A DNA stretch of 64,000 nucleotides from the NCBI GenBank assembly GCA_040757335.1, contig JBFLXB010000016.1, positions 1 to 64,000 on the forward strand. The letters run 5' to 3'. Source of the DNA: Nitrospirota bacterium. GTDB lineage: Bacteria > Nitrospirota > Nitrospiria > 2-01-FULL-66-17. The notes below the pieces were generated by a model. It saw only the letters and a program-made list of their open reading frames with translations, did not search any database and was not told where the DNA came from. Of the stretch, positions 5,753 through 10,238 are shown piece by piece (position 1 is the first letter of the stretch; each line of letters begins with the position of its first letter). The position numbers and the translations under genes are program-made.

Positions 5753-6478
5753 GTGACCTCGGACCCTCGACTCGACCTCGTCGAACGCTTCTTCCGCGGA
5801 ACCGGTTCCACGTATGACTTCATGGTCCGCGTCGCCACGCTGGGCTTCGACCCGGCGTGGAAGCGTCGGATGGTCCGGATCGCGCGTGAGCAGAAGGGCG
5901 AGCCGGGAGCGATCCTCGACCTGGCCTGTGGGACCGGAATTTCGACGTTCGCGTTCAGCCGTGCGTTTCCCCGCGCGCGCGTCGTGGGCGTCGAGCTTCG
6001 GGACGAGTACCTGCAACGTGCGCGGGCGAAATTGGCGGCCGCGCCCGATCCTCGCATCCAATTTGTCTTGAGCCGCGCCGAGGACTTCGCGACCGACCAA
6101 CGCTTCGACGTGGTCGCCGCGTCCTACCTCGCCAAATACGCCGACCTACCGGTGTTGGTGGATCGCGTGGTCGGATGGCTCAAACCAGGCGGATTGCTCA
6201 TGATGCATGACTTCACCTTGCCGCCGAATCGTCTCGCGTTGGGGGTTTGGAGAGCCTACTTTCGGATGTTGCAAACCCTCGGGTCGAAGATCTTCCCCCC
6301 GTGGAAGGCGATATACGATGGGTTGCCGGAGTTGATCGAACGCACGCGCTGGACGAGCCAACTGCAAGAGTTACTGCGTCAGCGGCGATTTTCAGATGTG
6401 CGGTTCGAGTGGCAGACGTTGGGCGGGTCGGCCATCGTGACAGCCTTGGCGCCGTTAACCGTGCGTGAACCGGAATAG
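5753..6478 (+). CDS. UbiE/MenG-like class I SAM methyltransferase
   Basis: This 241-residue Rossmann methyltransferase has the SAM-binding motif ILDLACGTGIS (residues about 54-64), an acidic residue in VVGVELRD and a post-II LKPGG loop. The N-terminal layout (TYDFMVRVATLGFDPAWKRRMV) resembles UbiE/MenG quinone C-methyltransferases, so a quinone-related substrate is plausible but unproven. The start is GTG. Its 3' end overlaps the convergent membrane gene by 24 bp. Confidence 0.78.
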   Translation: MTSDPRLDLVERFFRGTGSTYDFMVRVATLGFDPAWKRRMVRIAREQKGEPGAILDLACGTGISTFAFSRAFPRARVVGVELRDEYLQRARAKLAAAPDPRIQFVLSRAEDFATDQRFDVVAASYLAKYADLPVLVDRVVGWLKPGGLLMMHDFTLPPNRLALGVWRAYFRMLQTLGSKIFPPWKAIYDGLPELIERTRWTSQLQELLRQRRFSDVRFEWQTLGGSAIVTALAPLTVREPE

Positions 6479-7192
6479 GGCGACACCTATTCCAAGCGCG
6501 ATTACCCCGAGGCTGACGCTTTTCAGAATGCGTTCGTACATGGTGGCGGACGCCGTCTCGTCCGCGGATCGAGTCGATTTCCGCTTCAGATCCTTATAGG
6601 CGCGCGACGCGGTGATTTCCACCACGCTCAACGCGGCCATGGCTGCCGCGACGATCAGGGCCGCGACGGACACGCCGTTAGTCTGCATCGCGTATCCGGC
6701 CAGTACCGGCAGTGCGCCCCAAGACAACGCAAACCAGCCGTCGGTGTGGAAACGGCCGTTCCACCATTCGAGGTTGTAGGCGAACACGAAAAAGCCTTCG
6801 ACCACGGCAACGGCCGCGAGCCACGGCACGTACCAGAAGCTATAGTGCCCCGCGATCGCGTAGGCCGCGATCAGTGAACCACCCGCGGCAAACCATAGTT
6901 GCCGGCGCGAGAACACCTCGCCCCACGGCTTGATGCCGCGGCTCCCCAGCGCGTCCAGCGCGTGCGCGGCTATACCCAATCCAAAGAAATAGATTACTAA
7001 CAGCGCACCGACACGATGCCACACGACCGACGTCGCGAGCATGCCGCCGATCACGGTGTAAGACAGCACCATGCCGGTGTACGGCAGAAAGAGCAGGCCG
7101 ATGGCGGTTCGAAACCACAGCGGTCCTCTGCGGGGGACGAACCACTCGGAGAGTCGCGCGTTGTGGGTCGAACGCGCGGCGAGACGACTCAC
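6455..7192 (-). CDS. Multi-pass membrane protein, weakly UbiA-like topology
   Basis: The 245-residue product has about seven hydrophobic segments. The AAHALDALGSRGIK loop sits where UbiA prenyltransferases carry their Asp-rich motif, but the DxxxD pattern is absent, so I do not call it a prenyltransferase. The start is GTG. The gene converges on the UbiE-like methyltransferase with a 24-bp overlap, and a DUF559 cassette lies directly upstream. Function unknown. Confidence 0.65.
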   Translation of the reverse strand: MSRLAARSTHNARLSEWFVPRRGPLWFRTAIGLLFLPYTGMVLSYTVIGGMLATSVVWHRVGALLVIYFFGLGIAAHALDALGSRGIKPWGEVFSRRQLWFAAGGSLIAAYAIAGHYSFWYVPWLAAVAVVEGFFVFAYNLEWWNGRFHTDGWFALSWGALPVLAGYAMQTNGVSVAALIVAAAMAALSVVEITASRAYKDLKRKSTRSADETASATMYERILKSVSLGVIALGIGVALFRFTHG

Positions 7193-7602
7193 TCAGTCCC
7201 TTGTCGTCCCCCCCCTTTGAAAAAGGGGGGAGGGGGGATTTCCCGCCTGCGGTCCACCACCGCCTCACGGATGGCCTCGGTGACAGCGTCGGTGTGCCGA
7301 AGGACTTCCGCGCTGTCAAAACGTAATACGCATAGACCGAACCCTCTCAGCACTATGTCGCGCCGCGCGTCCTGGAGACTTCCTTCAGGGGCGAAGTGCT
7401 GGGATCCGTCGACCTCTACGACGAGCTTGGCACGCGGAGCATAGAAGTCCACGACAAAGCCGGCAATTGGTCGCTGGCGATAGAACTGAATTCCGGCGAT
7501 CTGTTTCCTTCTCACTCTCGACCAGAGAACCTGCTCACTCTGAGTCATCTCCTGGCGGAGGCGCCGTGCGACCTGCTTCAGGTCTGGTCGATAGTTGAGC
7601 AC
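7189..7602 (-). CDS. DUF559 endonuclease-like protein in a repeat-bracketed cassette
   Basis: The core (about 137 residues from a GTG start) is a DUF559 domain of the Vsr/PD-(D/E)xK fold. It has LRQEMTQSEQVLW, RRKQIAGIQFYRQ, FVVDFYAPRAKLVVEVDGSQH with the acidic catalytic residues, and GLCVLRFDSAEVL. These proteins are predicted very-short-patch-repair-like endonucleases. The frame stays open into repeats on both sides: a longer start at 7677 would add PPFDKGGQGG, and the C-terminus EIPPPPFFKGGG is encoded by the other repeat copy. The GTG start is preferred because the G-run of the repeat can serve as its ribosome-binding site 9 bases upstream. Confidence 0.78.
   Translation of the reverse strand: MLNYRPDLKQVARRLRQEMTQSEQVLWSRVRRKQIAGIQFYRQRPIAGFVVDFYAPRAKLVVEVDGSQHFAPEGSLQDARRDIVLRGFGLCVLRFDSAEVLRHTDAVTEAIREAVVDRRREIPPPPFFKGGGRQGTE
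7208..7241. repeat. Inverted GC-rich repeat, left copy (DUF559 cassette)
   Basis: A C-run (7208-7215), TTT, and then AAAAGGGGGG form a short palindrome, followed by a second GGGGGG (7232-7237) and ATTT. Its reverse complement matches the right copy at 7608-7643 almost base for base. It encodes the C-terminal PPPPFFKGGG of the DUF559 protein. Confidence 0.75.
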
Positions 7603-7607
7603 AGGGC

Positions 7608-7643
7608 AAATCCCCCCTTGCCCCCCTTTGTCAAAGGGGGGAA
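7608..7643. repeat. Inverted GC-rich repeat, right copy (DUF559 cassette)
   Basis: AAATCCCCCC, TTG, CCCCCC, TTTGTCAAA and GGGGGG follow each other. The element is itself palindromic around TTTGTCAAA and is the inverted counterpart of 7208-7241. Read on the minus strand it gives PPFDKGGQGG and a G-run just upstream of the DUF559 GTG start. Confidence 0.75.
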
Positions 7644-7658
7644 GAAGGCCCTGGAGCG

Positions 7659-10238
7659 TCAGTGAGCCTCCGCCCAATTCTGTCCTGTCCCGATATCCAC
7701 GCGGATCGGTACGGATAGCGGGTACGCCCCCTCCATTTGGGCCTTCACGAGCGCCTTCAGCGCCACGACGTCCCGCTCGACCACCTCGAAGACCAGTTCG
7801 TCGTGCACTTGCAGCAGCATCCGCGCGTCGAGCCCCTCGGTTTGAAGGCGTCGATCGATGTTGATCATCGCGAGTTTGATGATGTCCGCAGCGCTGCCCT
7901 GGATGGGGCTGTTCACGGCGCTGCGCTCGCCGAAGCTGCGATGCGCGGGGTTGGCGCTGGCCAACTCAGGGATCGGGCGCTTACGGCCCACGAGCGTAGT
8001 GACGTGGCCGTCGGCGCGCGCTTTGTCGATCGTCGCGTCCACAAAGCGCTTCACGCCTGCGAAGTGGATGAAGTACTCGTCGATATAGCGTCTGGCCTCG
8101 GCTTGCGACACGCCGAGTTGCTCTGACAAGCCGAACGGAGAGATCCCGTAAATGATGCCGAAGTTCACGGTCTTCGCGGCTCGACGCATCGCGGGCGTGA
8201 TCTCCGACGCGGGCAGGTTGAACAGAGTGCGCGCGGTGTCGGTGTGGATGTCGCCGTTGGTCCGGAACGCCTCGAGGAGGCGTTCGTCGCCCGACAGGTG
8301 CGCCAGAATACGCAGCTCGATCTGGCTGTAGTCCGCGGACAGCAGCGTGTACCCGGGCTCGGGCACGAACGCGGCGCGGATGCGCGGGCCCATCGGACCC
8401 TTGATCGGGATGTTCTGAAGATTGGGATCACTACTGGACAGGCGCCCGGTGGCCGCGACGGCTTGGTGGAACGTGGTGTGGATCCGACCGGTGCGCGGGT
8501 TGATCAGCGCGGGCAGCGCGTCGACGTACGTCGACTTCAGCTTGGAGAGCTGCCGGTAGGCCAGAATCTCGGCGGGCAGCTCGTGCTGCGCGGCGAGCTG
8601 CGTGAGCACGCTCTCGTCCGTGGAATACCCCGTCTTGGTTTTTTTAATCGGGGCCAGGCCGAGCCTGGTGAACAGGATCTCGGCGAGCTGCTTGGGGGAA
8701 TTGACGTTGAACTCGCCGCCGGCCAGGGTGTAGAGCCGTTGCATCATCCCCGCCATCTGCACATCCATCTCTTTGCTCAGGGAACTCAGGAGGTCCGCGT
8801 CCACACGGATGCCGAGCGCTTCCATGCGGGCGAGAACCGGAATGAGCGGGAGCTCGACGCGCTCCAGCACCTCGGTCTGACCGTCCGCGGCAAGGCGCGC
8901 CGCGAGGTCGTCCACCAGCGCCTCGGTCGCGCGGCACCAATCCGCGGCCGCGTCCGGACCGTCTGAAGCCGCAATCGTTTGTGAAAGGTATTCCAGCGCC
9001 ACGGGCGCCAGGCGTTGATCGGACCGATTCGCGTTCAACAGATACGCCGCGAGCATGCTGTCCCAGAATCCGGCGCGCACCGGGATGCCGCGTCCGAAGG
9101 CCCACACCAGCAGAGGCTTGACGTTGTGGCCGCGAATCGTGACCCGGTCGTCGCCCAGCAGGGCCGTCAATCCGCGAACCACGTGGTCGGCGTGTCGAGT
9201 CGCGTCGATCACCCCTTGTTCGCCGCCGACCACGGCGTACGCCAACGCGGTGGGCTCGCTGTTCACCGCCAGCCCTTCGCTCCACGCTGCCGCGAGCGTG
9301 ACGGCCCGTGCGTCGCGACCGCGCGCCATCGCTTGCTCGAACGTGGCGCCGTCCACGGTTGCGACCGCGACGGCCGGCGCTGACGGCGCGGGCGTAAGGG
9401 ATTTCAATAGCGCCGTGAATTCCAACTCGCGGCACAAGGCCACGAGTCGGCCTTGGTCCGGATCTTGCCGCTTGAACCGCGCGAGATCGAGCGTGACCGG
9501 GCAGTCGGTGGCAATCGTGGCGAGGCCGCGCGATCGGCGCGCCTCCTTAGCGTGCTGTTCCAGCGCGGCGCGCAGTTTAGGCTGGGGAATATCGGGAAGC
9601 CGGTTGAGAATCTGCTCCACCGAGCCAAACTCGCCGACCAGTTTGGTGGCGGTCTTTTCCCCGATGCCTTTGACGCCGGGGATGTTGTCTGTCGAGTCTC
9701 CCATCAGCCCCAACACATCGGGCACCAGAGTCGGCGCGACGCCGAACCGCTCGCGCACCTCGGCTTCACCGAACATCTTGTTTCGCAAGGTGTCGAACAC
9801 CTTCACGCTCGGCGTGACGAGCTGCAGCATGTCCTTGTCCGCGGTGACGATTGTGACCTCCAGCCCTTGCGCCTCGGCTTGGCGGGCGATGGTGCCGATC
9901 AAATCGTCCGCTTCGTACCCCTCCAGGACGAGCTTGGGAATGTTGAAGGCCTCGACCATGCGTTCGATATAGGGGATCTGCCGGGCCATGGGGTCCGGCA
10001 TGGGCGGGCGGTGGGCTTTGTAGTCCGTGTACTCGACGTGCCGTTGCGTGGGACCGACGGTATCGAACGCCACCGCGAGATAATCGGGCTGCTGCTCGCG
10101 AACGATCTTGAGCAGCATGTTGGTGAAGCCGAAGACCGCGTTGGTCTGAAAGCCTTTGGACGTGGACAGCGGCGGCAGCGCGAAAAATGCGCGGTAGATA
10201 TAGCCGTGGCCGTCGATGAGGAAGAGTCGTTGGGGCAT
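7659..10238 (-). CDS. polA: DNA polymerase I
   Basis: The 859-residue family A polymerase contains a 5' nuclease domain (residues 1 to about 290, with YEADDLIGT and GDSTDNIPGVKGIG), a central 3'-5' exonuclease-like domain and the polymerase domain from about 450. Polymerase motifs A (LLSADYSQIELR), B (RRAAKTVNFGIIYG) and C (VHDELVFEV) are intact. The central domain has no recognisable FDxE proofreading motif where VTLAAAWSEG occurs, so proofreading is probably lost, as in Taq and Bacillus Pol I. It acts in Okazaki fragment processing and gap repair. The ogt repair gene lies upstream on the same strand. Confidence 0.97.
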   Translation of the reverse strand: MPQRLFLIDGHGYIYRAFFALPPLSTSKGFQTNAVFGFTNMLLKIVREQQPDYLAVAFDTVGPTQRHVEYTDYKAHRPPMPDPMARQIPYIERMVEAFNIPKLVLEGYEADDLIGTIARQAEAQGLEVTIVTADKDMLQLVTPSVKVFDTLRNKMFGEAEVRERFGVAPTLVPDVLGLMGDSTDNIPGVKGIGEKTATKLVGEFGSVEQILNRLPDIPQPKLRAALEQHAKEARRSRGLATIATDCPVTLDLARFKRQDPDQGRLVALCRELEFTALLKSLTPAPSAPAVAVATVDGATFEQAMARGRDARAVTLAAAWSEGLAVNSEPTALAYAVVGGEQGVIDATRHADHVVRGLTALLGDDRVTIRGHNVKPLLVWAFGRGIPVRAGFWDSMLAAYLLNANRSDQRLAPVALEYLSQTIAASDGPDAAADWCRATEALVDDLAARLAADGQTEVLERVELPLIPVLARMEALGIRVDADLLSSLSKEMDVQMAGMMQRLYTLAGGEFNVNSPKQLAEILFTRLGLAPIKKTKTGYSTDESVLTQLAAQHELPAEILAYRQLSKLKSTYVDALPALINPRTGRIHTTFHQAVAATGRLSSSDPNLQNIPIKGPMGPRIRAAFVPEPGYTLLSADYSQIELRILAHLSGDERLLEAFRTNGDIHTDTARTLFNLPASEITPAMRRAAKTVNFGIIYGISPFGLSEQLGVSQAEARRYIDEYFIHFAGVKRFVDATIDKARADGHVTTLVGRKRPIPELASANPAHRSFGERSAVNSPIQGSAADIIKLAMINIDRRLQTEGLDARMLLQVHDELVFEVVERDVVALKALVKAQMEGAYPLSVPIRVDIGTGQNWAEAH

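Follow-up and report, generated by a model that had tools for sequence, protein, structure and literature searches.

A DUF559 nuclease gene between inverted copies of a dispersed palindromic repeat

Is the small nuclease gene that lies beside polA in a Nitrospirota bacterium, between two inverted GC-rich palindromes, a mobile cassette with its own two ends, or does it belong to the repeats around it? The window analyzed here is the whole 64,000-nucleotide stretch formed by positions 1 to 64,000 of contig JBFLXB010000016.1 (assembly GCA_040757335.1), and the original prediction, made from its letters alone, described a DUF559 nuclease gene inside matching inverted repeats as a possible mobile cassette. 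Both the gene (PF04480, E = 3.2e-32) and its palindromes are real, but a dispersed family resembling repetitive extragenic palindromes (REPs), with a nuclease of its own, accounts for the repeats better than a single cassette with two termini. The association of DUF559 genes with such repeats is solid, and from it we infer that the nuclease spreads the repeats. We consider it probable that this locus represents the copy, within a REP-like repeat system, that carries the nuclease gene; the enzyme would recognize and cut its own repeat.

The repeat family around the gene and across the host genome

The two repeat units at the locus (Table 1) share one build, in which a C-run/TTTGnnAAA/G-run hairpin is followed on the gene-facing side by a second G-run and ATTT. 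Their arms, 41 nt each, show 73% ungapped complementarity, and a gapped alignment of the flanks of the gene scores 25.5, whereas only 3 of 970 control positions in other DUF559 loci reach 16. When the host genome (G000; 3.56 Mb in 61 contigs) was searched for the hairpin pattern with up to two mismatches allowed, 45 forward and 45 reverse matches were found, compared with 1 and 0 for the pattern reversed. The repeat is therefore not a chance palindrome, and the solo copies that the original prediction suggested looking for are abundant. An unusually strong hairpin per se does not explain the window copies, which are unremarkable against shuffled sequences (z of -1.3 and -1.5); a complete single unit reaches -4.2.

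Counting the window's two, the host genome holds 46 hairpins in 36 elements: 10 complete single units, 16 half units, 1 bare hairpin, 7 complete doublets, 1 incomplete doublet, and 1 triple. A complete single unit reads AAATCCCCCCnnn-hairpin-nnnGGGGGGATTT, and the units carry C-run/G-run and AAAT/ATTT ends with no GTAG tag. Complete doublets have a spacing of 48-143 bp and tails that point outward in seven of seven cases, as do the tails of the outer units of the triple. The DUF559 gene is flanked by two half units with their tails inward, and it is the only such pair whose facing tails lie nearer than 220 bp plus the gene length. Facing tails as such are not unique to the gene, since complete units elsewhere also face each other; in one example on contig C33, two of them are separated by 629 bp and enclose a stretch that looks UvrA-like by eye, in which tblastn detected no DUF559 remnant (best E there, 0.069). 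The same part of the contig (C33:7377-14028, L145-L147) forms a local cluster of eight window-type hairpins in 7 kb, two of them around the UvrA-like stretch.

A polA neighborhood lacking the cassette, which the original prediction proposed to seek in relatives, is found in G001, a member of the same family and the closest relative having these genes in this order. There, the methyltransferase, the UbiA-like gene (75-79% identity), and polA (80%) follow one another as in the window with no DUF559 match, and the aligned ends of the UbiA-like gene and polA are about 90 bp apart. The spacer between these two genes is too diverged from that of the window to locate a junction or a target-site duplication, and the gene-free site could possibly reflect loss in this relative. 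By eye, GTAGGGGCACnnnATGnnGTGCCCCTAC-type palindromes were also seen within the methyltransferase and UbiA-like coding sequences of G001 (L136, 1150-1200 and 1610-1645), where the window orthologues have none; this seems to be another dispersed palindrome that enters genes. The host genome holds no second copy of the window's DUF559 gene, and its other DUF559 gene (L001, about 1390-1500; C1:337157) differs. That gene lies between stretches that look carA-like and carB-like and adjoins CCCCGCAAGGGG-type palindromes, and the DUF559 gene of another genome, G002 (L029), shares its neighboring sequence on one side.

DUF559 genes, GIY-YIG genes, and repeats in other genomes

To survey DUF559 loci more widely, named genomes were scanned with an alignment of ten DUF559 proteins, and the top 80 among 555 confirmed loci were retained, of which 75 were testable after four with short flanks and one with a run of N (L105) were dropped. 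Bracketing was scored by local alignment of the left flank with the reverse complement of the right flank, with a threshold of at least 16. By this measure 52 of the 75 DUF559 loci are bracketed, compared with 3 of 970 positions shifted within the same loci and 1 of their 251 other open reading frames (ORFs), which rules out that repeats simply build up next to any small gene. When flanks from different loci are paired, 95 of 1500 pairs reach the threshold because some loci share a repeat. Relatives of the same class as the host gave 22 DUF559 loci, a count that excludes hits in long frames or without a locus; with one dropped for a short flank (L028), 14 of 21 are bracketed, compared with 1 of 30 GIY-YIG genes of those relatives. 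Going by record titles, bracketed loci belong to Nitrospirota, Desulfobacterota, Proteobacteria, Chloroflexi, Bacteroidota, Cyanobacteria, Clostridia, Planctomycetes, Patescibacteria, Myxococcota, and one euryarchaeote (archaeon L056), and the repeat families at the genes differ from genome to genome. The original prediction had named a cassette always present at this place and repeat-free DUF559 genes elsewhere as outcomes that would speak against it, and neither occurred.

A script that scored hairpin-plus-tail orientation at the 65 bracketed loci among 88 returned 37 inward, 19 outward, 8 symmetrical, and 1 unscored, with some loci scored as outward being whole doublets. At one locus (L039, the same place as L063 in G029, a Nitrospirota genome of the host's class), the DUF559 gene sits between two whole doublets. 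The G-run of the repeat lies 4-13 nt upstream of an in-frame start in 23 of 59 bracketed loci. A stretch similar to part of the gene occurs nearby in 26 of 80 cores and 10 of 135 controls, a count that carries no weight as most of the cases listed are the repeat itself; at two loci, L062 and L121, the stretch does carry some gene sequence.

Across 72 loci, with pairs drawn from different phyla (labeled by record title, and with Alpha-, Beta-, and Gammaproteobacteria and unplaced Proteobacteria pooled as one phylum), DUF559 similarity predicts flank similarity after the difference in G+C is removed (partial r, 0.228, a value that no permutation out of 500 attained); control regions give -0.014. 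A repeat is shared by 40% of pairs in the top class of protein similarity, compared with 2.5% in the lower half. The same pattern can be followed in individual lineages, for which 30 genomes of the named loci were searched with locus-derived motifs, the genome-wide counts covering five repeat patterns. The motif CCCTCCCCCn4-5GGGGGAGGG, taken from four alphaproteobacterial loci, occurs in those 4 of the 30 genomes alone (13, 6, 57, and 72 copies), and a clostridial motif in its own two alone, one of which holds three copies in addition to those at the gene. The window motif is present in seven of the 30. Among the class relatives, another motif, CCCCTCCTTnnnAAGGAGGGG, peaks at 119 copies in G032 and has 20 in G039, and CCTCTCCCnnnnnGGGAGAGG has 39 and 42 copies, respectively; these two genomes belong to one genus, each carries both palindrome families in dispersed form, and their DUF559 matches number five and two. 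A window-type hairpin lies within 200 nt of the gene in 12 of the 14 loci read (L060 and L082 are without it) and near the gene in 10 of 11 nearest relatives (L055-L065), so the expectation that other DUF559 genes share these repeats is borne out mostly among close relatives, while many others are bracketed by repeats of their own.

The DUF559 gene of E. coli, ycjD, offers a comparison in a well-sequenced species. Downstream of its 3' end a repeat is followed by part of a second, inverted copy, and between the two is a copy (39 nt, 90%) of the 3' end of the gene, which is a real capture of gene sequence. This repeat, presumably BOX-C, is GC-rich, with C-runs, a hairpin, and G-runs. A ycjD match occurs in 3365 of 5426 E. 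coli genomes, and the 56-bp repeat in 5376 of them, at a median of 19 places per genome. Among 60 records spaced evenly down the ranking, the median number of repeat places is 20 in the 37 with ycjD and 5 in the 23 without it (Mann-Whitney P = 5e-10, a test that ignores kinship, with a K-12 query that favors K-12-like copies and the ycjD locus itself counted as a place). Between pstA and pstB, a 92-bp stretch holds the repeat; among 24 matches listed, 9 have it in full, 14 are without it, and 1 has an unrelated fragment. The stretch is bordered on both sides by ACACGGTT, an 8-bp direct repeat, with 97-99% identity around it in the matches listed, fitting either an insertion that duplicated 8 bp or the loss of a segment lying between short repeats. 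No repeat-free allele was seen between aaeR and tldD among 23 chromosomal matches listed, and the ytfR-ytfQ repeat locus is too complex for alleles to be read. The two ycjD-free strains examined (L190 and L191) give no clean empty site because a TetR/resistance-nodulation-division (RND) efflux operon occupies the place beside fabI. A plasmid search for ycjD returned only two records, both chromosome-sized. In strain ETEC6 (L193), an IS1 element interrupts ycjD.

Stand-alone GIY-YIG genes, which had appeared suitable as a negative control in the class relatives, fail as a clean one in Alphaproteobacteria. A search of 142 genomes gave 30 alphaproteobacterial GIY-YIG loci (L194-L223); with one dropped for a short flank (L222), 17 of 29 are bracketed by inverted repeats, compared with 1 of 105 control positions. 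The repeats of the two kinds of gene are different. C-run/G-run hairpins stand on both sides of 50 of 75 DUF559 loci and 0 of 29 alphaproteobacterial GIY-YIG loci, while a GTCAT motif stands on both sides of 3 of 75 and 14 of 29, respectively. Several of the GIY-YIG repeats, e.g., CGTCATCCCGACGCAGGTCGGGATCCA, resemble CGTC REPs, for which a dedicated transposase is reported to be missing (PMC3733652); some of the 17 bracketed loci have repeats of different families. A further stand-alone GIY-YIG gene was noted in G032 (L186).

The enzyme, its gene, and its neighbors

The AlphaFold model of the window protein has a mean predicted local distance difference test score (pLDDT) of 86.7 and matches the endonuclease-like protein 3hrl (Z, 16.6), the catalytic domain of I-Bth0305I (3r3p; Z, 12.4, with 96 residues aligned at a root-mean-square deviation of 2.7), and Vsr (Z, 10.9). 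A profile of the ten DUF559 proteins also matches the I-Bth0305I entry by sequence (E = 4.6e-4). Residues E61, D63, H67, and D76 are invariant in the ten-protein alignment and may correspond to the EDxHD active-site motif. The enzymes of the EDxHD group are described, in PMC3943268, as homing endonucleases with long tethered DNA-binding regions. Since the 137 residues counted from the GTG of the window protein leave little room for such a region, the repeat may be recognized by the compact domain itself, perhaps as a dimer on the palindrome.

The PF04480 match covers positions 3-107 of the 109 of the profile (111.1 bits against a cut-off of 20.6), and the Pfam scan of the protein returned PF04480 and MTES_1575 alone, with no HUH/Y1 tyrosine transposase domain. 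The protein looks intact because it is present in all 19 invariant columns of the alignment of ten DUF559 proteins, itself included, and keeps all 19. The original prediction had the reading frame running through both repeats; the open frame (7677-7189, minus strand) does span both, but translation of the right one is improbable. Because the proteins of relatives begin at the residue matching V26 of the frame, which corresponds to the GTG, the right repeat is probably an untranslated leader and the left repeat alone is translated (REIPPPPFFKGGGRQGTE), encoding the C-terminal PPPPFFKGG with its tail pointing towards the gene. The G-run of the right copy (7612-7617) ends 9 nt ahead of the GTG, as expected of the ribosome-binding site for which it had been taken.

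The minus-strand order is polA, then the DUF559 gene, then the UbiA-like gene, and the neighbors do nearly touch, as had been noted: the DUF559 stop shares bases with the start of the UbiA-like ORF (GTGA). No Rfam match reached the gathering score anywhere in the window, which rules out a known structured RNA as an explanation of the repeats, and no intron RNA was found around the DUF559 gene.

Table 1. Coordinates in the window of the DUF559 gene, its repeats, and the adjoining genes.
Feature	Position	Strand	Details and basis
DUF559 (PF04480) gene	7189..7602	-	Predicted Vsr/EDxHD-type endonuclease; ORF, Pfam, alignment of relatives, model and fold matches
DUF559 probable start and stop	GTG 7602-7600; stop 7191-7189	-	Start from alignment with relatives
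Left REP-like unit	7204..7244		Hairpin CCCCCC-TTTGAAAAA-GGGGGG 7210-7230, C-run 7208-7215, G-run 7232-7237, ATTT 7238-7241
Right REP-like unit, inverted	7605..7645		AAAT 7608-7611, C-run 7612-7617, hairpin 7621-7641; tail towards gene
AAGGGGGG of right unit	7612..7619	-	Shine-Dalgarno position, 9 nt upstream of GTG 7602
UbiA-like gene	6455..7192	-	ORF; Pfam UbiA 31.6 bits, below cut-off of 34.2
polA	7659..10238	-	ORF, Pfam

Likely role of the nuclease and the alternatives

Nunvar and colleagues proposed that REP-associated tyrosine transposases (RAYTs) spread REPs, and the features on which they based this are inverted REPs at both gene ends, an abundance specific to the host, composite repeats, co-evolution, a link between REP abundance and the gene, and the capture of gene ends (PMC2817692). 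All of these recur, wholly or partly, in the present case, although the enzyme is unrelated, and it is by this analogy that we suggest that DUF559 enzymes of this kind introduce nicks or breaks into their own repeat, which repair would copy to new places. The small Vsr/EDxHD-type endonuclease would most likely recognize its repeat as a duplex palindrome or as an extruded hairpin; repair copying from the break would then create new repeat copies and may carry the gene to a new site. For this particular gene, the proposal of a small homing-like or repeat-mobilised unit stands only partly: the gene-free site, the bracketing elsewhere, and the solo copies speak for it, but there is no second copy of the gene, the empty site may have arisen by loss, and a dispersed REP-like family describes the repeats better than cassette ends do.

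The closest likeness is to the REPtrons of REP/RAYT (TnpA-REP) systems, with their bacterial interspersed mosaic elements (BIMEs) and REP doublets (REPINs), where a gene also lies between inverted copies of a palindrome dispersed in its host, doublets occur, repeat and enzyme vary together, copy number is tied to the gene, and gene ends are captured, as at ycjD. The enzyme here, however, is PF04480 rather than an HUH/Y1 tyrosine transposase, the repeat has a G-run and ATTT tail in place of a GTAG tag, and the DUF559 pairing extends to an archaeon (L056); the system works in a REPtron-like manner without being a REPtron. With Vsr and the EDxHD homing endonucleases such as I-Bth0305I it shares a predicted catalytic fold and, with the latter, a sequence match, but unlike the phage enzymes of that group, as far as PMC3943268 describes them, it has no intron and no long tethered DNA-binding region, and a dispersed palindrome brackets its gene. 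The presumed BOX-C of E. coli has the same C-run/hairpin/G-run build and differs in its placement. CGTC REPs are likewise dispersed, tagged palindromes, but their sequence differs from the window repeat, and in our survey they accompany GIY-YIG rather than DUF559 genes.

Several observations weigh against a nuclease that spreads its own repeat. The bracketing test fails at 23 of the 75 DUF559 loci and at the host genome's own second DUF559 gene (score, 9), and both repeat copies at ycjD lie 3' of the gene, with none 5' in K-12. The genome of L082 has 157 window-type motifs, yet another repeat type flanks its DUF559 gene, and the second clostridial genome has the repeat beside its DUF559 gene only. 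Among 58 class relatives, the window motif occurs in 15, and a strong DUF559 hit is found in 9 of these 15 compared with 8 of the 43 others (P = 0.006), but the cut-off for a strong hit was chosen after the table had been seen, and counting any hit gives 9 of 15 compared with 14 of 43 (P = 0.07), so that this association, taken alone, is weak; six relatives carry the motif without any DUF559 hit. Lineage is uncontrolled in the ycjD comparison of repeat places. Finally, Caulobacter VsrA, which has a DUF559 domain, is proposed in PMC12907096 to be a Vsr-type mismatch-repair endonuclease, and some DUF559 members may have host functions.

These exceptions bear differently on the alternatives. If another enzyme, e.g., a RAYT, spreads the repeats, DUF559 could be an independent homing gene for which they serve as landing sites, and it would thereby come to lie between two of them. 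Some insertion sequences do target REPs (PMC2817692), the predicted fold matches the catalytic domain of a homing endonuclease, and the six relatives with the motif alone would fit, but we hold this to be unlikely, as the type of repeat follows the nuclease sequence across phyla and one kind of gene accompanies many repeat families. Nor does the gene split a unit; it stands between two units whose tails face it, and at L039 a whole doublet lies on each side. Stand-alone hairpins can act on mRNA, and DUF559 might also be an ordinary host repair enzyme of the Vsr kind, passed on by descent or now and then transferred, as proposed for VsrA in its repair role, beside which terminators or mRNA ends collect as palindromes. 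Such an origin seems to us decidedly improbable given inverted copies at both ends, an arrangement found at a single one of the 251 other ORFs, repeat families that are unrelated between genomes, the orthologous site without the gene in G001, and the restriction of ycjD to part of E. coli. We attach very little credence to the idea that the bracketed unit is cargo, like a miniature inverted-repeat transposable element (MITE), which some unrelated transposase moves in trans by way of the palindromes: the ends are inverted and solo copies exist, much as for MITEs, and the pstA-pstB locus shows presence and absence of 92 bp with an 8-bp direct repeat, but cargo would vary, and the same kind of gene is found inside many unrelated repeat families in many phyla.

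A nuclease acting on its own repeat thus remains the reading we prefer, and it may extend beyond DUF559. We tentatively propose, with rather more doubt than we attach to the window locus, that each superfamily of bacterial REP-like palindromes brackets, and spreads by, its own small nuclease: HUH RAYTs with GTAG repeats, the known pairing; DUF559 enzymes of the Vsr type with repeats that bear G-runs, among them the BOX-C type of E. coli; and, for CGTC repeats, the GIY-YIG enzymes. Full-text searches of the open-access literature, whose scope takes in neither preprint servers nor subscription papers, showed us no account of DUF559 or GIY-YIG genes in association with dispersed palindromes. Short palindromes are common in bacterial genomes, and their origin is open outside the RAYT-linked class. 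If DUF559 and GIY-YIG proteins are cognate partners of such repeats, a large unexplained repeat class would gain an enzyme, and a domain of unknown function would gain a substrate. REPs would then represent a lifestyle that several unrelated nucleases of the homing type have adopted, through break-and-copy rather than classical transposition, and ycjD of E. coli K-12 and its repeat would make the question directly testable.

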